From positions 62,001-126,000 of the forward strand of contig NZ_CP019329.1 in assembly GCF_001971705.1 (NCBI RefSeq): a DNA stretch of 64,000 bases, read 5' to 3'. The stretch is from Natronorubrum daqingense (GTDB lineage: Archaea; Halobacteriota; Halobacteria; Halobacteriales; Natrialbaceae). The position numbers and the translations under genes are program-made. Shown in pieces: positions 21,820 through 30,298 of this stretch; positions within the stretch are counted from its first letter, which is position 1; every line of letters begins with the position of its first letter. Under the pieces are notes generated by a model, which worked only from the letters and a program-made list of their open reading frames with translations, had not been told where the DNA came from and ran no database searches.

Positions 21820-22224
21820 TGTAGGGGTGTTGTGCGTATGCGACGGGTTTTGGACGTAGCAGGCCGTTTACTGTCCGATAACGGATTCCGGGTACGGATA
21901 CGGGTATGGCTATGGCCGCTGCTACGACATCGATTCCAAGTGCTCGCGCTACTCTCGAATGCTGATGGACGGGAGAAGCGTAGCTATCGAATTTGGCCAC
22001 ACGACACGGCCGCCCTGAACTGCTCAGTCACTCGCACAGATCGGGTCTTAGCCGACGTTACTTCGTGACTTTACCGTCGTGTGACCTTGTGTATACGAGC
22101 GTACGGGTTCATCTAATATGAAAGTAATGGGTGCCAACCGATTTCTTCCGGAAATATCGGTGCTGTGGGCCTTGGTTTAGGTCTGGGACTGACCCTTCAA
22201 GTGGGGTGAGGTGGAAAAGTGGAT
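21820..22224 (-). other. Non-coding stretch upstream of the leftward array
   Basis: Four hundred bases with no frame I can support on either strand. It must hold the promoter for the leftward genes, but I see no clear TATA element at the expected distance from 21819. A run of imperfect GG-TACGG/GG-TATGG units occurs near 21890-21915. Confidence 0.4.
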
Positions 22225-22419
22225 TTACGGCGACGAATCCTGGGTCCGTTCTTCAGTCAACTCGTTGGGTTCTGGGATTGGGTGCTCGCCAGTATCCGGG
22301 GTGGGGAGATCTTCGAACGAAACACGTTCCCACTCGTCTGGTCGCGCGCAGTCATCTGCCTCGAGTGGTTCACGCTCACGTTCAGAGTCGTTCTGATCAT
22401 CCTTTTTGTCCGAAGTCAT
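22225..22419 (-). CDS. Small acidic protein, paired with the 22642 gene
   Basis: 64 residues from the ATG at 22417-22419. An in-frame ATG at 22467 would add 16 residues. It is nearly all charged or polar with Pro-Glu motifs and no fold I can recognise. The 25 bases before its start are almost the same as those before the gene at 23176, including a CCCGGG and the sequence TATACATGAC or TGTGTATGAC. This shared leader suggests common regulation of the two small acidic proteins that flank the 134-residue gene. Confidence 0.5.
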   Translation of the reverse strand: MTSDKKDDQNDSEREREPLEADDCARPDEWERVSFEDLPTPDTGEHPIPEPNELTEERTQDSSP

Positions 22420-22641
22420 GTATATCCCGGGAATGAGTACCCAATACCCAACTGCTGACTTTGCCATCCACTGCCTATCAGTTAGTTGTTCAATGGTATT
22501 TCCGCCCCTGACGCATAGTGATAATGGTTATTCCCATGTCATTAACGTGGTTTTCGAGACCCGAATAGTCAATCAAAGAAGCGGTCTTCGCCCGCGCCCT
22601 AGCCGAGGGTTTATCTCTAATCCGGCCAGATTACTGACTGA

Positions 22642-23046
22642 ATGGACCCCGTCAACGAAACAGAGTATACGAACGAAATCGCGCCACCATATACGCGGAT
22701 TCGTACGTACTTCGCGACTGATCGGGGCCAAGTCATTCGTTTTGTCGTGAAACTCGAGTACAACATCTCAAACAATACAGCCCTCCTCGAGAAGTGGGAA
22801 GAGGTCGCCCGATTTGATCACAACCCAGAGTCACAGGACGGTCACGATATCACGGATGAAGGTCTCCATATGGATCTTATCGAACCGAATGGGGACGATC
22901 GGCGTGCATGGGGGTTTCCCGACGTTCCAATTAATGACGCTCCTCGATGGTGTGAGAGTTACTTCGAATCAAATCACCGGCGCTTGACAAAGCGATTCGC
23001 AAAAGAAATCGGAATAGAAAAGTGGAATTTACCTACTCGTCGATAG
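22642..23046 (+). CDS. 134-residue protein of unknown function
   Basis: The protein begins at ATG 22642, about 30 nt after a TATA-like TTTATC, consistent with a leaderless transcript. It is a soluble alpha/beta protein with a conserved-looking core (VVKLEYN, WEEVARFDHNP, GLHMDLI) and a basic C-terminus. The last 14 bases overlap the 3' end of the small acidic gene on the other strand. A basic soluble protein beside very acidic partners recalls toxin-antitoxin or inhibitor pairs, but nothing proves this. Confidence 0.6.
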   Translation: MDPVNETEYTNEIAPPYTRIRTYFATDRGQVIRFVVKLEYNISNNTALLEKWEEVARFDHNPESQDGHDITDEGLHMDLIEPNGDDRRAWGFPDVPINDAPRWCESYFESNHRRLTKRFAKEIGIEKWNLPTRR

Positions 23047-23176
23047 TCTCCCACTCGAGATCTTCAAGCTCTGGCTTTGGATACTCCTCAAAATCAGGTT
23101 CAAACTCCTCTTTAGGCCGGTCAGTTTCCTCTGCCAAGCGTTCAGCCGCATTCTCCGGTTTCTTTTTCAATGTCAT
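23033..23176 (-). CDS. Small acidic protein, same leader as 22225 gene
   Basis: 47 residues starting at ATG 23174-23176, with a Lys-rich first ten residues and then a Glu/Pro-rich remainder. Its upstream sequence matches that of the 22225 gene. The gene converges on and overlaps the 22642 gene by 14 nt. It is too short to assign. The common leader is the best evidence that it is real. Confidence 0.45.
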   Translation of the reverse strand: MTLKKKPENAAERLAEETDRPKEEFEPDFEEYPKPELEDLEWETIDE

Positions 23177-23320
23177 ACACACCCCGGGATTTGATACCCG
23201 TATTCTGTTTGCGTTGTTTACTACACACCCCCTACGAATTTGCAATGTCCGTTAGGGGGTGTCTAACTGGTATCTAGTCCACAACACCCAGTGGACATAA
23301 ATCTTCACCATGGTTTGTGA

Positions 23321-23719
23321 TCAGTCCACTATCTCCATGCCAGCGGCCTCGAGCGCCTTCGGCCACGTTCCCCATCGGCGCAGGTACGGCGTGATAGAGT
23401 GCTCACCGCGTTGATTCATCTCCGACTGTGACGGCGGCCGGCCGAGTTCCACTGCGAGGTCGCGAACCGCGTCGATCAGGTCGTCCTCGTCGACGCGTCG
23501 CCCAGGTCGAATATCCTCTGGGTTGAGCCCTGCCTCTTTGCGTGCATCAAACCACGACTCGAATCGTCGAAAATAGGTCGATGGGTCGTATTCGCCGTGT
23601 TCCTCAACGTCTTCAAGAAGCACTGGCTGGCCGTGTTCATCCGCTAGTCGCTGGAGATCGGCGAGGGGGTCCGCGTCGGAGAGATATTCGTGGTTGTGAA
23701 AACTTTGATTATTCGTCAA
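23321..23719 (-). CDS. Homing-endonuclease-associated repeat protein
   Basis: 132 residues with two copies of a roughly 45-residue helical repeat. The first runs through LQRLADEHGQPV, YFRRFESWFDARKEAGL. The second runs through AVRDLAVELGRPPSQSEM, YLRRWGTWPKALEAAGM. This is the small DNA-binding repeat found beside HNH and other homing endonucleases in haloarchaea (Pfam family HNH_repeat). No nuclease domain is attached, so it probably binds DNA or acts as a regulator. Its start lies only 16 bases from the start of the divergent membrane-protein gene. Confidence 0.75.
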   Translation of the reverse strand: MTNNQSFHNHEYLSDADPLADLQRLADEHGQPVLLEDVEEHGEYDPSTYFRRFESWFDARKEAGLNPEDIRPGRRVDEDDLIDAVRDLAVELGRPPSQSEMNQRGEHSITPYLRRWGTWPKALEAAGMEIVD

Positions 23720-23735
23720 GCCGAATTGTTAATTG

Positions 23736-23981
23736 ATGGATGTTGAGGTAACACCCGAAAATATATTCACTGGCCTTTTTGCATTTCTAATAGTGGTTAC
23801 AGCCGGTCCAGCGATCTCTAGCGCAAAGTCTGAGGCGGCCTGGTCACTTCTTCACACTGCGGTTTTTGATGTTAGTGGACTGGCCCCAAGAATGGTGGTT
23901 GTTTGGACTGCTGTTATCGTACTTCTTGCTGTGCCTGGGTACGTTGCTCTAGCGAAAATCCCATTTGAGAGCCGAGGATGA
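23736..23981 (+). CDS. Small two-helix membrane protein
   Basis: 81 residues from ATG 23736. Hydrophobic helices lie at about 11-28 and 51-72, with a short polar loop between. It is divergent from the repeat protein, so the two genes share a very short control region. No family recognised. Confidence 0.5.
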   Translation: MDVEVTPENIFTGLFAFLIVVTAGPAISSAKSEAAWSLLHTAVFDVSGLAPRMVVVWTAVIVLLAVPGYVALAKIPFESRG

Positions 23982-23982
23982 C

Positions 23983-24018
23983 TTCCCTACGAGGTTCCCT
24001 TCGAGGTTCCCTTCGAAT
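23983..24018. repeat. Three tandem 12-nt repeats
   Basis: Three head-to-tail copies of TTCCCTTCGAGG (the first has A for T at position 7, the third ends AAT) start just after the stop of the membrane-protein gene. They sit between two convergent genes, so a role in termination or simple slippage expansion are both possible. Confidence 0.7.
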
Positions 24019-24085
24019 ACAGTGGGGGGGATCGAAATTTAGAGCTAGTATCCGTCACTGCGTAATTACATCCAGGGCCGGGATT

Positions 24086-24352
24086 TTACTGTGTATCCTC
24101 ATTTTGCTTGAGTTCGCTCGCGTCAAGTTCCTCATTGAGATAAGCTTCCCCTTCCTCAGTAATCCCATAGAGGCCGCGGGAGATTCGATCAACCAATCCA
24201 TATTTGGCAAGCACAGGGCACCGATTTCGGGCATGGCCAGCGCTAGGCCCGCCAAGATCTTCGATTGCTGTCGGAGTTAAATTGCCATACTCACGAATGA
24301 GTTCCAGAATTTTATCGTCCGACGGAACCATCCACTCAGCTTCCTGGCGCAT
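24086..24352 (-). CDS. phiH1-repressor-like winged-helix protein
   Basis: 88 residues when started at the ATG giving MRQEAEWM, the N-terminus typical of haloarchaeal phiH-type repressors. A longer ATG at 24382 exists. A single winged helix covers residues about 9-75, with the wing at GLYGITEEGEAYL. It faces the TnpB-like operon across a 227-nt region holding two inverted repeats, so it probably represses that operon and itself. A related intact gene at 52753 faces the second operon of the window. Confidence 0.75.
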   Translation of the reverse strand: MRQEAEWMVPSDDKILELIREYGNLTPTAIEDLGGPSAGHARNRCPVLAKYGLVDRISRGLYGITEEGEAYLNEELDASELKQNEDTQ

Positions 24353-24435
24353 CTCGTTCGAGGAGTTGGGAGCAATAAACATACGGATACTGGTTATAGG
24401 TGTATTCTGTCCACTCGTGCATAAAAACTTGTATT

Positions 24436-24463
24436 GTATAATTGTATACTGACGACTCGTCAG
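24436..24463. promoter_or_regulatory. Two adjacent inverted repeats, candidate operators
   Basis: GTATA-ATTG-TATAC (24436-24449) is followed directly by the perfect palindrome CTGACGA-C-TCGTCAG (24449-24463). They lie between a winged-helix repressor gene on the left and the operon starting at 24580, immediately upstream of a TATA-like GCTATATTA (24467-24475). This is the position expected for repressor binding in haloarchaea. Confidence 0.6.
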
Positions 24464-24479
24464 TAAGCTATATTAGTAG

Positions 24480-24579
24480 CCGGTGTCAAATGGCTGTTGA
24501 CCTGCCCCTTCTGGGCCTCAAAGGTCCAGCGTGCTGGAGACACGCCGGGGTCGGGTCACCCTAGCAAGAGTTTCCGACC
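24480..24579 (+). ncRNA. Structured leader of the TnpB-like operon
   Basis: The 100 bases before the ATG at 24580 contain several nested complementary segments. CCGGTGTC (24480-24487) pairs with GACAC-G-CCGG (24539-24548). Inside it are GACCTGCCC with GGGC...AGGTC (24499-24526) and TCCAG with CTGGA (24525-24538), which compete for two bases. GGTCGG (24549-24554) pairs with CCGACC (24574-24579), whose last base touches the start codon. It may be a regulatory leader or a guide-like RNA. The true transcription start is unknown and could fall inside the first stem. Confidence 0.4.
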
Positions 24580-24846
24580 ATGCAAAATGACCGCTCGAGG
24601 GGCAATGAATATTGCCCCATAGACGATGGTACAGCTGGCCGATCGATTGGCCACGAAAACACCACCAACAAAACGCACCCGCGCCAAAGCCCGGACACAC
24701 GGGCGAAAGGCCGTACACCCCACACTCGCCCGTCCGTAGAGTTCCCCGCAAAGGCACCTAAACGACAGGACACCACGCAGTACGACGAACTCATCGTCGC
24801 CAACGACGATGCGATCCTCTTCGAAGCCTCGAGAGGTGACCACTGA
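24580..24846 (+). CDS. Small basic protein, first gene of TnpB-like operon
   Basis: 88 residues, polar and rich in Thr, Arg, Pro and Asn, with a short folded-looking C-terminus (YDELIVANDDAILFEAS). There is no motif I recognise. Its TGA overlaps the next ATG (TGATG), so the two genes are coupled. The C-terminal hydrophobic strand might contact the zinc-ribbon protein encoded next. Confidence 0.6.
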   Translation: MQNDRSRGNEYCPIDDGTAGRSIGHENTTNKTHPRQSPDTRAKGRTPHTRPSVEFPAKAPKRQDTTQYDELIVANDDAILFEASRGDH

Positions 24847-25601
24847 TGGTGCGTGGCGGGTGCAAACACTGCGGGCAACGAACCACGAACAACCGGCTGT
24901 GCAATCGCTGCCAGACGCTCGAGCATCGAGATTTTTTCGTCGAAACCGACGGCCAACCCACCAATACCGACGACGCGCTCGAGTATCGCTGCACCAACTG
25001 CGGGTGCGAGTACACCGCGGCCGGCTCAGAAAGCTGCCCCGACTGCGGGTCCCGACGTCGCCGGTACATCGGTCCACTGTCTGGCGAACAACCAAACGAA
25101 CGAACCCTAGCCACCGACGGGGGCCGCGACACCCACCAGGGAACCCTCGAATTCGTCTTCGAGTACACGACCGTCGATGACCGTCGTCGCCGCGTCACAA
25201 TCATTCCCGATACGGGCGGCGAAGGGTGGCGAATCACCCACGAACGCCGCGATGGCGAGTGGCGGGAAACTGGGCGTGAGCCAATTTCGGGCCTCCACCT
25301 CCAGCTATCGTCAACCGAGAACGCAAACCCAGCCACCCCGTCAACTAACCATTCAGCTGTCGACCTCGAGACACTCGCAACTGCCCACGACCAACTCGAG
25401 TGGGCGGACGTGCCCAATGTCTCAACTGCTGAAGCTGCAGCCTGGGCCGCCCGCCTACGAGAGGCACACGACCGTCTCGAGACAGATCTGACGGGAACTG
25501 TCGACAGACCGGCAGAGATCGACTCCGATGGCGGGACAACCACCGTCCGAGGACCCAAACCCGACACCCAAGAGCCCTCGCCAGGTGGTCCCAATGCGTA
25601 A
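24846..25601 (+). CDS. Double zinc-ribbon protein
   Basis: 251 residues. Two cysteine clusters open the protein: C6-x2-C9 with C19-x2-C22, and C49-x2-C52 (plus C54) with C64-x2-C67, each able to hold one zinc. The remainder has a beta-rich domain (EFVFEYTTVDDRRRRVTI) and a helical acidic C-terminus. It overlaps the TnpB-like start by 8 nt (ATGCGTAA), so both should be made together. A nucleic-acid-binding accessory of the RuvC-like protein is a reasonable guess. Confidence 0.72.
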   Translation: MVRGGCKHCGQRTTNNRLCNRCQTLEHRDFFVETDGQPTNTDDALEYRCTNCGCEYTAAGSESCPDCGSRRRRYIGPLSGEQPNERTLATDGGRDTHQGTLEFVFEYTTVDDRRRRVTIIPDTGGEGWRITHERRDGEWRETGREPISGLHLQLSSTENANPATPSTNHSAVDLETLATAHDQLEWADVPNVSTAEAAAWAARLREAHDRLETDLTGTVDRPAEIDSDGGTTTVRGPKPDTQEPSPGGPNA

Positions 25602-26295
25602 CACCGACCAAACGGCGATCGGCGTCGACCTCGGCGAGTACAACCTGTACACCGCCTGCCCAGTAGGGATGCCCGATTGGAAGGGTGCCTACACGATCTG
25701 CGGCGATGAGTTGTGTACGCGCCTGGACGAACTCCGCGAGCAGGTCATCACACTGCTTGGCAGCGACTACGACCGCGACACGGTCGTCGCGTACGTCACC
25801 CAGCGGCGCAACGCACTGCTCGAGGACCTTGATAGCGCAGCGAGAGAACTGTGCGAGTACGCGAGCGCGTACGACTACCCCGTGCTGGTCACCGAGGACA
25901 GCCACTACCAGCCAGACCTCTGGGCATGGCTTACCAACTCGAACGCCCACCGCGGAACGGCGTGGGTCCTTCCGATGGCCCACCTGCGTCTTCGGGCGGT
26001 TGCTGACGAGTACGACATCGAGGTCGGAACAGTGCCTGAGGAGTACTCTTCCCAGGAATGCCACGACTGTAGCGTCATCGGTGAGCGGCCGCTGAACCGG
26101 ACCTTCCGTTGTACCAACCCAGACTGTCACGTCGAAACAGTCTACGCCGACTACAACGCTGCGAACGTCCTCGCACAACGGCACTACTCCGGCCAGCGAT
26201 GTGCATACCGACCCCCGATCTCGGTCACGGTGGGTGAACGTCCAGCCCTCGTCGCCGACGGTGGCTCGCCACAGCCGTCACGGAGAGATGTGTAA
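25594..26295 (+). CDS. RuvC-only TnpB/OrfB-like protein
   Basis: 233 residues from ATG 25594. The three RuvC-like acidic residues of TnpB are in place: D12 (AIGVDLGEYN), E101 (LVTEDSHYQ) and D186 (YADYNAAN). The inserted zinc finger has C156-x2-C159 and C173-x4-C178. The region normally preceding RuvC in TnpB (wedge and REC, about 170 residues) is absent, and no TnpA or insertion-sequence ends are seen. The gene is coupled to a zinc-ribbon gene. It may be a domesticated nuclease for replication, guide-independent cutting or regulation. Activity is not shown by sequence. Confidence 0.82.
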   Translation: MRNTDQTAIGVDLGEYNLYTACPVGMPDWKGAYTICGDELCTRLDELREQVITLLGSDYDRDTVVAYVTQRRNALLEDLDSAARELCEYASAYDYPVLVTEDSHYQPDLWAWLTNSNAHRGTAWVLPMAHLRLRAVADEYDIEVGTVPEEYSSQECHDCSVIGERPLNRTFRCTNPDCHVETVYADYNAANVLAQRHYSGQRCAYRPPISVTVGERPALVADGGSPQPSRRDV

Positions 26296-26458
26296 CCGAC
26301 AGGCCGACGGTCGCGCTGGGGCCCGAGTGGCCTCGAGCCGTTGCTCTGTGACTAGCTACGCAGCCGATCGCCCGCCCCCAGTGTTGTCCCCGCTTTTCTG
26401 ACCGCTGACTGCTGGCTGCATCGTCTTTCCAACTACTCCAACTGCAGACCCTGACAAC

Positions 26459-27355
26459 ATGAGCACAAATTCCGAGCAATCCGGACCGAACGCATCGACT
26501 ATCCAAGCACTAGCAGACGAACTCGAGGTGCTTTGTGACCGAATCGTCACGCTTGAATCCAGCCTCGAACAGAAGCAAGATCGTCTCGATCATCTCGAAG
26601 TCGAACTCGATCAAGAGCGTGCAGAGAACGAACGTCTCGAGGCCCGGGTTGAAGAACTCGAGCAAGCGCGGACACCGGTCGAGGCGCGACTAGACGCCCA
26701 CGAGAAGAAGCTGAACGCAAACAAGACTCGCGTCGGCGAACTCCAGGCTCGCGAACTCGAGAAAGGCGCACATCTGCTCGATGCCAACGTCGACGAAAGC
26801 GAGATCAACGTCGCCGATGGTCGACTCGAGCGTGTGAGCAAAGACGACGGTCGCCAGTACTTCCGACTCCCAGAGAGTGAAGACCCACTCGAGCGTGGTG
26901 GCGGCGTCGCGCTAGCACACGGCGATCTCCTGCCCATCCAGCAACTCGCAAAGATGGACGACGACATGCTCCATGCAACCACGTCCGCGCTGCCCTCTCG
27001 GCTCGCTGCCAAACTCTGGAAGGCGCGTTCCGATCCCGGTGTCGGTGACAACCCCTGGAAGAAAGGGAGTGCAGGAGTCCGTGAGTACATCACAGCGGGC
27101 GATATGAAACACTGGATCCGCCGCCAAGAGAAGGGCGTCAGTGATGGTTATGCAAAGAAACTCGTCTCAAGGACGATCGATGCCTTACTCGATCTGTCGA
27201 AGAGTCGGCTGGCAATTAAGCGGAAACGCCAGCGTAAGAACGGCCTCGAGTACACCGAACGGCGCGTCCTGTTGATGGACGATGTAGAAGTCCCTGGTGA
27301 AGGAACTGGAGTCCCTGAGCACGAGGATCCGGTGACAAGTGACGTCGACGGTTGA
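26459..27355 (+). CDS. Coiled-coil DNA-binding-like protein
   Basis: 298 residues. Residues about 15-110 form a strong coiled coil (repeated Leu/Glu heptads). The C-terminal half has a small beta element (GRQYFRLPE) and then a helical region (about 190-270) with several basic clusters that could be a winged helix (MKHWIRRQEKGVSDGYAKKLVSRTIDALL). It follows the TnpB-like gene by 163 nt. A similar coiled coil plus C-terminal basic domain occurs in the 57512 gene of the second module. It could be a partition or replication accessory. Confidence 0.6.
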   Translation: MSTNSEQSGPNASTIQALADELEVLCDRIVTLESSLEQKQDRLDHLEVELDQERAENERLEARVEELEQARTPVEARLDAHEKKLNANKTRVGELQARELEKGAHLLDANVDESEINVADGRLERVSKDDGRQYFRLPESEDPLERGGGVALAHGDLLPIQQLAKMDDDMLHATTSALPSRLAAKLWKARSDPGVGDNPWKKGSAGVREYITAGDMKHWIRRQEKGVSDGYAKKLVSRTIDALLDLSKSRLAIKRKRQRKNGLEYTERRVLLMDDVEVPGEGTGVPEHEDPVTSDVDG

Positions 27356-27922
27356 GGCTGTCCCCGGGTTGTTCGAACCCACCTGAGAAGGAAAACACTC
27401 TCCAACGCTAACAGAATTCCCCTGCGGTTGCGGTTGGTTGCCTGTCTGGTTACTTGTATGTCTGTCTCTCGATCGGTCGTCGACGGTCATAGACCGACGA
27501 CTGCTCGAGAGCAGTCACTGAAGACGTCAACTGTCACCGGGAACTGGCAATCTAGATCGGAATCGTCTGCTCGAGGGGTTTCGCGTTGCACTCAGAGTCC
27601 CTTCTGTAGGAAACAGGATCACACCGAACCGACCTTACAAGGCTCCCAGGAGAGTCAGCACAACACCCCTTAAGTGTGTACGTCGCTCAAACCTGAGAAC
27701 TGTCTTGGGTCGGCGTAACTGTACGATTGAGAAGAGATATGTTAAATTTGTCTATCACTGGTGATCCCGGTGTATTCGTTAGTTCGTGAATTGGCCCACA
27801 AACTAGAGTGGATTTTCCAAATAGATTTGTCGTGGTGTTACCGTGCGCTCTATAGACATACTGAACGATCAATACATGTAATAGTAAGAGCAAAAACCTC
27901 ATCGCCTAATGCGTTATATGCC
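27356..27922 (+). other. Non-coding stretch with two hairpins
   Basis: No supported gene. GTCGT/ACGAC with an inner CGGTC-ATA-GACCG stem lies at 27476-27501, followed by CTGCTC-GA-GAGCAG at 27501-27514. GCGGTT units repeat at 27424-27440. The position between the TnpB-like operon and the next rightward gene, and the density of dyads, would suit an origin or terminator, but I see no initiator-box consensus. Confidence 0.4.
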
Positions 27923-28441
27923 ATGCCCGTTCTTGAACAGCTAATCGAATCAGGCTTCACTCTTTTATTAATTTTTGACGAGCCTGCACTATTCCTATTG
28001 TTTGTGCTGAAAGGTGCAATAATAGGGAAAATATTCCCCACATCGCTTCTTTTGCCAGGATACCTCATTGCTATTTCAGCATCCTCAAGATTAATCGCTA
28101 TTAGTATACTCGTTGCTTCGTTTGGATATGTAACTGGCCAACTCATCATATATCACATATCTAATAGTCGTGGAATAGATGCGATTAACGCGCTTCCAAA
28201 TGTTTCTGTGTCGGATGAACAGATAATGAAAGCTGAATACTATTTTCAACAATACAGTGGTATCGGTATCTTTGTTACGAATCTCGCCCCCTTTGTCGGA
28301 TCCTTCATCATGATTCCTGCAGGCATGACTTCCTATCCAATTACTCGTACTACCTTTTACGCGCTCACGTCCACAGTTCTAAATTATATTATTATTGTAT
28401 TGATTAGCTTCGAATCCATCGAACTTCTTGGAATACTGTAA
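27923..28441 (+). CDS. DedA/VTT-family membrane protein
   Basis: 172 residues from ATG 27923. The longer GTG-initiated frame adds 54 residues unlike the family. The start MPVLEQLIESGFTLLL, the segment GAIIGKIFPTSLLLPGYLIAI and the later FVTNLAPFVGSFIMIPAGMTSYP match DedA proteins, with four to five membrane helices. DedA proteins are lipid scramblases or transporters of undecaprenyl-phosphate-type carriers in bacteria. The haloarchaeal role is open. The gene is AT-richer than its neighbours and stands alone, suggesting separate acquisition. Confidence 0.75.
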   Translation: MPVLEQLIESGFTLLLIFDEPALFLLFVLKGAIIGKIFPTSLLLPGYLIAISASSRLIAISILVASFGYVTGQLIIYHISNSRGIDAINALPNVSVSDEQIMKAEYYFQQYSGIGIFVTNLAPFVGSFIMIPAGMTSYPITRTTFYALTSTVLNYIIIVLISFESIELLGIL

Positions 28442-28576
28442 ATAGTCTTGGGATCAGTCTGCGAAGTACTCGCCTGCTCTGACTAGAGAAGATCAATCGA
28501 GGTCTTTTCAGATTCACCGCCGACCGCGAGTGGACTGGGCGACAGTTCTATCAGTACCACCCACGTACCACGATGT

Positions 28577-28846
28577 ATGAGTACCGACGCGGAAGACAAC
28601 GGCGACATGGTGAAACTCAACGTCAAAGTTCCCAAGCGTCTTTTGGAAGAGCTAGACGAATTGGCACAGGAACTGAATTACACCAACCGCTCGGAGTTCA
28701 TCCGTGAGGTACTGCGTGACACCACGGAGCCGATTTTGACGCCTGGAGCACAGGAGGGTGTCTCTGAGGGGTATGCGGACATCGCGGCGGGGCGGACACT
28801 GTCCACGGATGAGGCTCGAGAACGCCTTGGAATCGACGAGGAGTGA
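28577..28846 (+). CDS. CopG-type ribbon-helix-helix antitoxin
   Basis: 89 residues. The N-terminal ribbon-helix-helix is clear (MVKLNVKVPKRLLEELDELAQELNYTNRSEFIREVLRD, residues about 11-48), followed by a flexible acidic toxin-binding tail. Two copies of GTACCAC lie just upstream of the start and could be operator half-sites. The toxin gene follows 9 nt after the stop, so the pair forms a type II system. Confidence 0.85.
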   Translation: MSTDAEDNGDMVKLNVKVPKRLLEELDELAQELNYTNRSEFIREVLRDTTEPILTPGAQEGVSEGYADIAAGRTLSTDEARERLGIDEE

Positions 28847-28855
28847 GGCTGAACG

Positions 28856-29152
28856 GTGGCCCACGAGATCGTCCTGACGGAGACGCTGGTTGAAACGCTG
28901 GAGCAGTTCGAAACAGAAGACGCGAAACGAATCATCAACAAACTCGAGGATATCGGTGACTTTCCTGAGCACTTTCTCGATAGACTGAAAAACCATCCCG
29001 GATACAAGCTTCGAGTTGGTGACTTCCGGGTCCTGATTGACTGGGACAAAGACAACGAGACGATCTACGCTATCGACGCTTTCGAGCGAAAGAAGGAATA
29101 CCGGGAACTCGGAAAATACCGTGAAGTTTGGGGGTCTTGGCGCGACGAGTAA
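28856..29152 (+). CDS. RelE/ParE-family toxin
   Basis: 98 residues starting at GTG 28856. The sequence has the RelE/ParE plan: N-terminal helices (ETLVETLEQFETEDAKRII), then LKNHPGYKLRVGDFRVLIDWD and IYAIDAFERKKEY, the core strands with conserved Arg residues that contact ribosome-bound mRNA. It probably cleaves mRNA in the A site and is neutralised by the CopG protein encoded upstream. Such pairs stabilise plasmids. Confidence 0.85.
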   Translation: MAHEIVLTETLVETLEQFETEDAKRIINKLEDIGDFPEHFLDRLKNHPGYKLRVGDFRVLIDWDKDNETIYAIDAFERKKEYRELGKYREVWGSWRDE

Positions 29153-29179
29153 TCCGTTGCGAGTCGGTCAAATAACCGG

Positions 29180-29198
29180 CGGGTGGAACGGGTGGAAC
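29180..29198 (+). repeat. Tandem GGGTGGAAC repeat before the initiator gene
   Basis: Two head-to-tail GGGTGGAAC units precede the TATA-like ATTTAA at 29210. An 18-base match, including both units, recurs at 53405-53422. It could be an initiator-binding repeat or operator. See findings. Confidence 0.6.
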
Positions 29199-29242
29199 GA
29201 ACCCCCACTCAATTTAACTGACACTCATGCAAACAGACGGGT

Positions 29243-30298
29243 ATGCGCTCCTATTCGGACCAAGATATTCTTCGCGATCGGGCACCCTTACGTGATGATC
29301 ACGCACCCGAGACGATTCGTCATCGCGACGACGAGCAGACACACCTTGCCTCGTTACTCTCCCCGGATGTTGCTGGCGGCATCGTCGAGGTTGCATTAGT
29401 CCACGGCCCGCCTGGTGTCGGGAAGACGTGTACCGTTGAGGCCGTGATCCACGAGGTTGACGCCGAGTTCGACGCCATCCAGACCGTCATGGCCGACTGC
29501 TGGACGGATCACAAACGCTCTCGAGTGCTGTATACCATCCTCGAGCAACTGGTGGGCTCAACCACGGCTCGTCGCGATTCGACGCCAGCCGACGAACTGC
29601 TCTATCAGATCAAGGACGCGATTGACGGGCCGACGGTGATCTTCCTCGACGAAGCGGACAAGCTCGTCGACGATCTCGTTTTGCGCGACCTCTATGAAAT
29701 CCCGGATGTGCGATTGCTGTTGGCAGCGAACAACCCACATCAGGTCGTCGGCGATATCGAGCCGCGAGTCTATTCGCGAATCGGGACGGCGACGCGTGTT
29801 AAATTCGACCCGTATCACGACAGTGAGTTACGCTCGATTCTGGATGATCGGATTCGGGCTGCGGGCGTCCAATCCGGACTTGTGGACCGGCAGACGCTCG
29901 AGACGATTTCCGATCGGGCAGAGCGGGATGCTCGCAGAGCAATCGCCATTTTGCGAAACTCTGTGGACGCTGTCGCGACCGGTGATGTCGAGTCGATCAC
30001 CGATGATGTGATCTCGGCGGCGACCGTCAGCGCAAAGGAGGATATCGCCCGCGCACGGATTTCGTCACTAACGGCCGATCAGCGGGTTGTGCTCGACGTA
30101 CTCTTTGAGAGTGGTCCGGCGACCAGCGGGTCGATTCACGAGGAATACGCGAGTCAGGTGACAAACGAGTGTGGTGCCCGCACTGTTCGTGGCTGGCTCG
30201 GTGAGAAGTTCCAGCAGTACAATCTGGTGTGTGTACTCGAAGATCGGCATCCACAGGAGTACGCGTTGACTGACGCGGCGCGGGCGATTTTGCGTTAA
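29243..30298 (+). CDS. Orc1/Cdc6-family replication initiator
   Basis: 351 residues. The AAA+ module has Walker A GPPGVGKT (55-62), Walker B FLDEAD (134-139) and a sensor region (LLLAANNP). The C-terminal winged helix runs from about residue 270 (SSLTADQRVVLDVLFESGPATSGSIHEEY). It is shorter than chromosomal paralogues (about 400) and resembles plasmid Orc proteins. A TATA-like ATTTAA 30 nt before ATG 29243 fits a leaderless message. It should bind origin repeats and load replication factors. The GGGTGGAAC repeats directly upstream are candidate targets. Confidence 0.9.
   Translation: MRSYSDQDILRDRAPLRDDHAPETIRHRDDEQTHLASLLSPDVAGGIVEVALVHGPPGVGKTCTVEAVIHEVDAEFDAIQTVMADCWTDHKRSRVLYTILEQLVGSTTARRDSTPADELLYQIKDAIDGPTVIFLDEADKLVDDLVLRDLYEIPDVRLLLAANNPHQVVGDIEPRVYSRIGTATRVKFDPYHDSELRSILDDRIRAAGVQSGLVDRQTLETISDRAERDARRAIAILRNSVDAVATGDVESITDDVISAATVSAKEDIARARISSLTADQRVVLDVLFESGPATSGSIHEEYASQVTNECGARTVRGWLGEKFQQYNLVCVLEDRHPQEYALTDAARAILR

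Follow-up and report, generated by a model that had tools for sequence, protein, structure and literature searches.

What becomes of the nuclease half of a TnpB when it is encoded in an operon without the half that handles the guide RNA? The question is raised by a 64,000-nucleotide stretch of Natronorubrum daqingense (contig NZ_CP019329.1, positions 62,001 to 126,000 of the forward strand), which is referred to below as the window and whose own numbering is used. Positions 25594-26295 (plus strand) encode a 233-residue protein resembling the RuvC half of TnpB, the ancestor of Cas12, and an earlier interpretation made from the letters alone (the sequence-only reading) had proposed that this gene was domesticated for a new job. 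The anatomy of the locus is well supported, as are the conservation of a family of such proteins and covariation in a leader RNA at the head of the operon. As to function, we tentatively favor, at somewhat less than even likelihood, a domesticated TnpB nuclease half that would be targeted by partner proteins and used in element defence or competition.

The RuvC-only protein and its family

The protein, a putative RuvC-only TnpB-derived nuclease, retains the residues D12, E101 and D186 and the TNB zinc finger (C156, C159, C173, C178), and matches PF07282 (Cas12f1-like TNB) above the cut-off (E=1.2e-10). The NCBIfam model guided_TnpB was aligned to it, below the model cut-off, solely over positions 195-389 of 389, i.e., the C-terminal half, and full-length haloarchaeal TnpBs align with it only from about residue 170-260 onwards. 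Judged by these alignments, the protein is exactly the C-terminal RuvC and zinc-finger half of TnpB. The spacing of D12, E101 and D186 is near that of a complete TnpB RuvC domain. The best PDB sequence matches were Cas12p, Fanzor1 and Cas12f, profile and fold searches also returned TnpB, and the best fold matches were Cas12f (AlphaFold2 model of mean pLDDT 58.5, usable for fold class only).

The wedge/REC half has no counterpart in the protein, and the frames of nearly all its relatives are far shorter than a full TnpB. No TnpA-like or serine recombinase ORF (open reading frame) was found between 23 and 29.5 kb of the window or annotated near the relatives, and no repeat pair resembling insertion sequence (IS) ends was found in the region 22000-29300. 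A search of Rfam (release 15) gave zero matches up to E=1 in the window region 22000-30000, hence neither an omega-RNA nor a family matching the leader RNA; as a positive control, the same search found the omega-RNA families RF02656 and RF02657 at two full TnpBs of the same genome. The sequence 3' of the RuvC stop diverges in several pairs of relatives, and the gap between RuvC and the next gene, g4, is just 48 nt at one locus (L010). By Rfam, an omega-RNA at the RuvC 3' end is absent; an RNA of a new kind may still lie there. Since the active site is complete and both wedge/REC half and omega-RNA are missing, RuvC is most likely not self-guided to its targets.

A profile search (E<=1e-40) recovered 49 copies of the RuvC-only gene from 33 of 391 Halobacteria genomes, with open frames mostly of 211-387 residues, the exceptions being one 763-residue fusion, one 544-residue frame and fragments. 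Natrinema, Natrialba and Natronolimnohabitans have close orthologues (57-73% identity). The three catalytic residues and the four cysteines are invariant across 18 aligned members at identities down to 35%, and Ka/Ks was 0.12-0.62 over 15 pairs of RuvC-only genes, by which the family is evidently under purifying selection. In the window, as in many relatives, the RuvC gene begins before the ORF ahead of it has ended (8-nt overlap), and overlaps of 8-11 nt are common across the window's clade. Some copies are fragments or carry an in-frame stop.

In a tree with 11 full TnpBs, a small sample with some long branches, every RuvC-only protein fell on one side of a single branch (support 97/80), and on this side two clades were separated, that of the window (100/99) and its sister (99/97). 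The topology is consistent with a single loss of the N-terminal half, short of proof.

Thus the RuvC half with its catalytic residues and finger, the loss of the wedge/REC half and the lack of TnpA and IS ends, all proposed in the sequence-only reading, were borne out, and domestication is supported by the conserved family, its invariant residues, its Ka/Ks values and its recurrent neighbourhood. That reading had also named what would speak against it, namely the missing half in frame, a flanking TnpA with ends, or a gene order conserved nowhere else; each was looked for, and none was found.

Several side observations concern the family and its full-length relatives. Six RuvC-only copies from the two clades, some of which are broken or truncated, lie on several contigs of one genome (G262) and suggest that the gene moves with mobile elements. 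A 58-kb Natrinema plasmid (L013, 7995-10202) encodes a 735-residue protein in which the RuvC half is fused to about 500 further residues that include zinc-finger-like segments; neither the leader nor g4 is present at this locus. In the window's own 3.8-Mb genome, eight of the nine PF07282 matches lie on the 181-kb contig that holds the window (180,835 bases), and most of the other matches are in frames of 427-509 residues, i.e., full TnpBs. Rfam HgcC matched weakly, below its threshold, at the 3' ends of complete haloarchaeal tnpB genes (L131 2190-2300, L132 2178-2288, L004 1812-1936), and these matches are possibly undescribed omega-RNAs. Scans of IMG/VR returned two weak RuvC-related loci and three g4 loci, and no close RuvC-only relative. 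The literature searched contained no description of the RuvC-only family or the leader RNA, which is weak evidence of absence.

The leader RNA and the operons that it heads

The four ORFs of the sequence-only reading were all confirmed on the plus strand. Together with the upstream features they are as follows.

24086-24382, minus strand: divergent winged-helix regulator, 98 residues (PHROG phrog_2440 'transcriptional regulator', E=1e-32)
24469-24475, plus strand: TATA-like element TATATTA, read from the sequence; predicted transcription start about 25 nt on, at the 5' edge of the leader, with similar spacing in relatives
24487-24641, plus strand: structured leader RNA of type A, matching model R2, whose alignment includes the window sequence
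24498-24508/24547-24558, plus strand: leader stem P1 (model R2)
24511-24517/24523-24529, plus strand: leader stem P2 (model R2)
24530-24533/24541-24544, plus strand: leader stem P3 (model R2)
24574-24579, plus strand: S3 element CCGACC, directly 5' of the first AUG and complementary to GGUCGG (24549-24554) in the P1 3' strand
24599-24606/24611-24618, plus strand: leader hairpin P4 (model R2)
24580-24846, plus strand: g1, small first ORF, 88 residues, N-terminal codons overlapping P4
24846-25601, plus strand: g2, 251 residues, optional cargo; N-terminal double zinc ribbon and C-terminal domain (Pfam zinc-ribbon matches below cut-off)
25594-26295, plus strand: putative RuvC-only nuclease, 233 residues
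26459-27355, plus strand: g4, 298 residues, coiled coil 12-110 and predicted C-terminal winged helix 213-272 (AlphaFold2, the coiled coil alone confident)

The leader follows a TATA-like element in every Natrialbaceae RuvC locus examined except the plasmid L013/L082. It extends about 115-135 nt ahead of the first AUG, its structure continuing into the first codons. Two sequence types, A (that of the window) and B, have the same architecture: P1, a long stem, closes the structure, further hairpins lie inside it, and P4 is situated about 20 nt into the first ORF. The two types may be of common descent. Among 28 type-A leaders, 13 of 29 pairs changed on both sides (64 cells vs 21 in shuffles; P1 alone 7 of 11 pairs), in an alignment fitted to the model. 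The type-A structure was set by hand, the automatic fold being wrong for P1 by a one-base register shift, and was re-checked on the model alignment. For type B, 6 of 24 pairs changed on both sides (18 cells vs 7.6 in shuffles), and A-U to G-C changes in P4 preserve pairing while altering the encoded residue.

S3, at least six bases long, repeats the 5' strand of P1 (S1); hence the 3' strand (S2) is able to pair with either. Type-B leaders show one position at which all three strands have changed in concert (G-C-G to C-G-C), so that S2:S3 covaries with P1, and in a swap test over 13 distinct leaders each leader's own S3 fitted S2 better than swapped ones (p=1.5e-4, a value that ignores relatedness). 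A translational on/off switch would be expected to leave such a pattern. In the proposed ON state S2 would pair with S1 and free the start codon; in the OFF state it would pair with S3 and block the start, and the downstream genes would follow the first ORF by translational coupling.

When 125 Natrialbaceae genomes were searched with the leader models, 101 had at least one type-B match and 48 at least one of type A, with up to 12 matches per genome. The 58 type-A places listed comprise at least 15 with RuvC and g4 downstream, at least 22 with g4 only and at least three with RuvC only; 18 have neither among the genes listed. Seven of 19 sampled leader places head SNJ2-type integrase operons. 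The virus SNJ2 itself carries a type-B leader (model R1, 155 bits, E=1.4e-38; L123 1785-1961, minus strand), which lies between the divergent gene gp04 and the accessory genes plus integrase; the literature searched yielded no account of a conserved 5' RNA switch in a pleolipovirus. Another operon built like that of the window, but without RuvC, is present in the window's genome (G000:C2:104828-104983 = L103 1829-1984, type-A leader); its order is leader, small g1-like ORF, AbrB-like protein (recognized by eye), small ORF and g4. The slot from g1 to g4 looks like a variable cargo site.

The winged-helix gene stands upstream in nearly all Natrialbaceae RuvC loci, and its product in the window is 40% identical to SNJ2 gp04 over 84 residues (E=2e-18). 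Homologues of g1 (75-93 residues) occur in at least 10 relatives, pN being weakly below pS; many type-A loci keep g1 as the small ORF at the front, and in others upstream ORFs of 33-35 residues take its place. The gene g4 lies downstream of most RuvC genes in the window's clade and of many leaders without RuvC. No PDB fold match was obtained for the g4 model. From these comparisons the conserved core is judged to be the divergent winged-helix regulator, the covarying leader RNA, the small first ORF and often g4, and RuvC itself is taken to be an optional cargo of leader-headed operons.

The four-gene operon of the sequence-only reading therefore stands as a recurrent gene order and neighbourhood with a real, covarying leader in front; its zinc-ribbon gene proved not to be conserved, and the winged-helix gene and the full extent of the leader had been missed. 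The idea that the zinc-ribbon protein replaces the lost N-terminal half is ruled out: within the window's clade nearly all orthologous loci lack g2, four related genomes retain no more than its C-terminal part, without the zinc ribbon, and a gene not conserved cannot fill that place. Segments related to g2 also occur in an operon without RuvC (L115).

Six RuvC copies without g4 (L069, L072, L077, L078, L081, L083) share one recurrent site, the gas-vesicle-like genes gvpO, gvpN and gvpF (recognized by eye) lying 3' of RuvC.

The sister clade, the proposed function and its rivals

In the sister clade, a Cas7-like gene of HRAMP lies directly 3' of RuvC in eight loci of seven genomes (L089-L095, L097), its start sitting at the RuvC stop, usually as the overlap ATGATTGA; at L090 a second RAMP-like gene is next in the operon. 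With PADLOC profiles the RAMP partners score as Csm3 (9e-5) and Cmr3 (7e-8), and Pfam RAMPs scores are below the cut-off. HRAMP, a haloarchaeal CRISPR derivative without an array, is described as accompanied by various nucleases, for the most part of the HNH and PD-(D/E)xK kinds (PMC8730458, PMC12669027), and neither of these reviews names a RuvC-only TnpB half among them. Because the Cas7-like gene occurs in 104 of the 391 genomes, RuvC would be one optional HRAMP nuclease among several. No HRAMP Cas7 match was found in the window's genome in the search of the 391 genomes. The window operon, without Cas7 or Cas5, is by its gene content not HRAMP, and the sister clade is by its neighbours linked to it.

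Within the sister clade the leader is weak at L089 (E=2.4e-7); at L014 it scores 15 bits, yet the long closing stem and the divergent winged-helix gene are present. A perfect S1/S2/S3 triple at L098 comes from a generic triple scan that was rejected as too unspecific, with about one chance hit per 2.5 kb. Elsewhere (G105:C8:58213-60839), an HRAMP Cas7 gene, with no RuvC among the genes listed, is preceded at 1.6 kb by a strong match to the type-B leader, and HRAMP operons may use the same leader RNA more widely.

A separate observation concerns an RHH/RelE-like pair 3' of g4 (28577-29152), copies of which, 90-94% identical, occur in another genus (L091), where an HRAMP-linked RuvC gene follows after about 1.5-2 kb. 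Such near-identical pairs are a sign of recent exchange between such loci.

Under the favored explanation, an operon of a haloarchaeal plasmid or mobile element is controlled by a divergent, repressor-like winged-helix protein and a switch-like leader, and the RuvC-only TnpB is one exchangeable cargo gene. RuvC would be a nuclease subunit carried to DNA by partners, Cas7/Cas5-like proteins in the HRAMP-linked clade and, in the weakest step, probably the coiled-coil/winged-helix protein g4 in the window, and may serve to cut competing elements or viruses. Targeting by partners is suggested because the sister clade is linked to HRAMP and every guide-handling part has been lost, including the omega-RNA. 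Among the jobs proposed in the sequence-only reading, element competition or defence appears to fit best, again because the sister clade sits in HRAMP operons. The SNJ2-related pleolipovirus HHPV4 encodes HHPV4I, a methylation-dependent restriction enzyme (PMC10101028), and nucleases on such elements therefore have precedent.

A number of points weigh against this explanation. The gene g4 is common without RuvC (it occurs in 85 of the 125 Natrialbaceae genomes, mostly without it), and eight leader-bearing RuvC loci lack g4 (L069, L072, L074, L077, L078, L081, L083, L088), so g4 cannot be an obligate partner. The partnerships of RuvC with g4 and with Cas7 are proposed from gene neighbourhood. 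We know of no demonstrated activity of HRAMP. Confidence in the fold model of RuvC is low (pLDDT 58.5). The S2:S3 helix of type A has just 6 bp and is, by a weak per-sequence test, not significant in single sequences for most type-A leaders, the evidence for the switch resting on the swap test and the covariation counts.

The main rival, unlikely in our estimate but to be taken seriously, holds that RuvC is a structure-specific nuclease or resolvase of the element, which would process replication or recombination intermediates without an RNA guide and take the operon place that SNJ2-type elements give to an integrase and its helpers. Free-standing resolvases with a RuvC fold are well documented, SNJ2-type integrase operons are headed by the same leader and regulator, an Orc1/Cdc6-like gene (29243-30298) lies 2 kb downstream of g4, and there is a weak fold match to bacterial RuvC (E=0.2). 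However, the sequence and fold matches are to TnpB/Cas12f, the TNB finger typical of guided nucleases is retained, the sister clade lies in HRAMP operons with no obvious replication role, and most leader operons do without RuvC, which would thus be dispensable for element maintenance. Rather improbable is a minimal RNA-guided enzyme, in which the leader or another RNA substitutes for the lost N-terminal half and guides RuvC in trans. RNA assumes protein roles in the small Cas12f and IscB systems, and a conserved structured RNA of about 155 nt is present in the same transcript as RuvC at almost all Natrialbaceae RuvC loci. As a guide specific to RuvC, the leader is nevertheless rejected because many operons that lack RuvC, including that of SNJ2, have the same RNA in front; the leader also stands on the 5' side of the gene, extends over the first codons and shows a pairing pattern at the start codon typical of cis-regulation, no guide-like variable tail was identified (no separate scoring was made), and the omega-RNA is absent.

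That RuvC is a DNA- or R-loop-binding regulator of the operon, its active site being kept for folding, has a similarly small share of our confidence. The operon context with regulator and leader and the precedent of the TnpB-derived repressors (TldRs) favor it, but TldR-type proteins lose their catalytic residues, whereas all three are invariant here, and a guide RNA is absent. By far the least probable is a decaying IS remnant whose frame is open by chance. The fragmentary and interrupted copies would agree with it, but for the family as a whole the sequence conservation refutes it: 49 copies, invariant catalytic residues, low Ka/Ks, a conserved overlap with the preceding ORF and recurrent neighbours.

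A domesticated nuclease half targeted by partners would show that a TnpB nuclease has been reused without a guide, in a catalytically intact family that shed the whole guide-binding half, and the branch beside Cas7-like genes would hand HRAMP a testable effector. A broader proposal, which as a whole we consider unlikely though not far-fetched, is that TnpB lost its guide-binding half once and became the nuclease subunit of multi-protein assemblies (with Cas7/Cas5 in HRAMP and, on plasmids, other DNA-binding partners), by which path an RNA-guided nuclease of a single protein would turn into a class-1-like nuclease, and that RuvC-bearing, HRAMP and pleolipovirus integrase operons share an unlisted switch RNA coordinating mobile-element genes across haloarchaea. 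The leader does appear to be in wide use as a regulatory RNA among haloarchaeal mobile elements, and its presence in a virus with a cultured host (SNJ2/Natrinema sp. J7) opens both the proposed switching and its trigger to testing.

Comparison with known systems

The RuvC-only family shares with TnpB (IS200/IS605, IS607) and Cas12f the RuvC D...E...D residues, the TNB zinc finger and the PF07282 match, and differs from them in lacking the wedge/REC half, TnpA, IS ends and omega-RNA and in being fixed in operons with other genes. By its sequence, the protein does not qualify as a guided TnpB, nor the locus as an IS element. Like the TldRs, it is a TnpB derivative domesticated in a fixed gene neighbourhood; TldRs retain the guide-binding half and lose catalysis, and the RuvC-only family did the opposite. 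The haloarchaeal sot/omega-RNAs RF02656 and RF02657 are likewise structured RNAs tied to TnpB-type genes, but they lie at the tnpB 3' end, whereas the present leader precedes its genes, has no match to either family and is not RuvC-specific. With HRAMP the sister clade shares the position of RuvC directly before a Cas7-like gene, whereas the window operon itself has no Cas7- or Cas5-like RAMP gene.

The SNJ2-type integrase operon of betapleolipoviruses (Wang et al. 2018, in the summary of PMC8371274) encodes two recombination accessory proteins and a tyrosine integrase. It resembles the window operon in its divergent winged-helix gene and in a structured leader with P1, S3 before the first AUG and P4 in the first codons, and its first ORF shares the N-terminal codons and P4 hairpin of type-B leaders; in place of RuvC and g4 it has the accessory proteins and the integrase. 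Measured against these systems, the RuvC operon is best regarded as a variant of domesticated TnpB.

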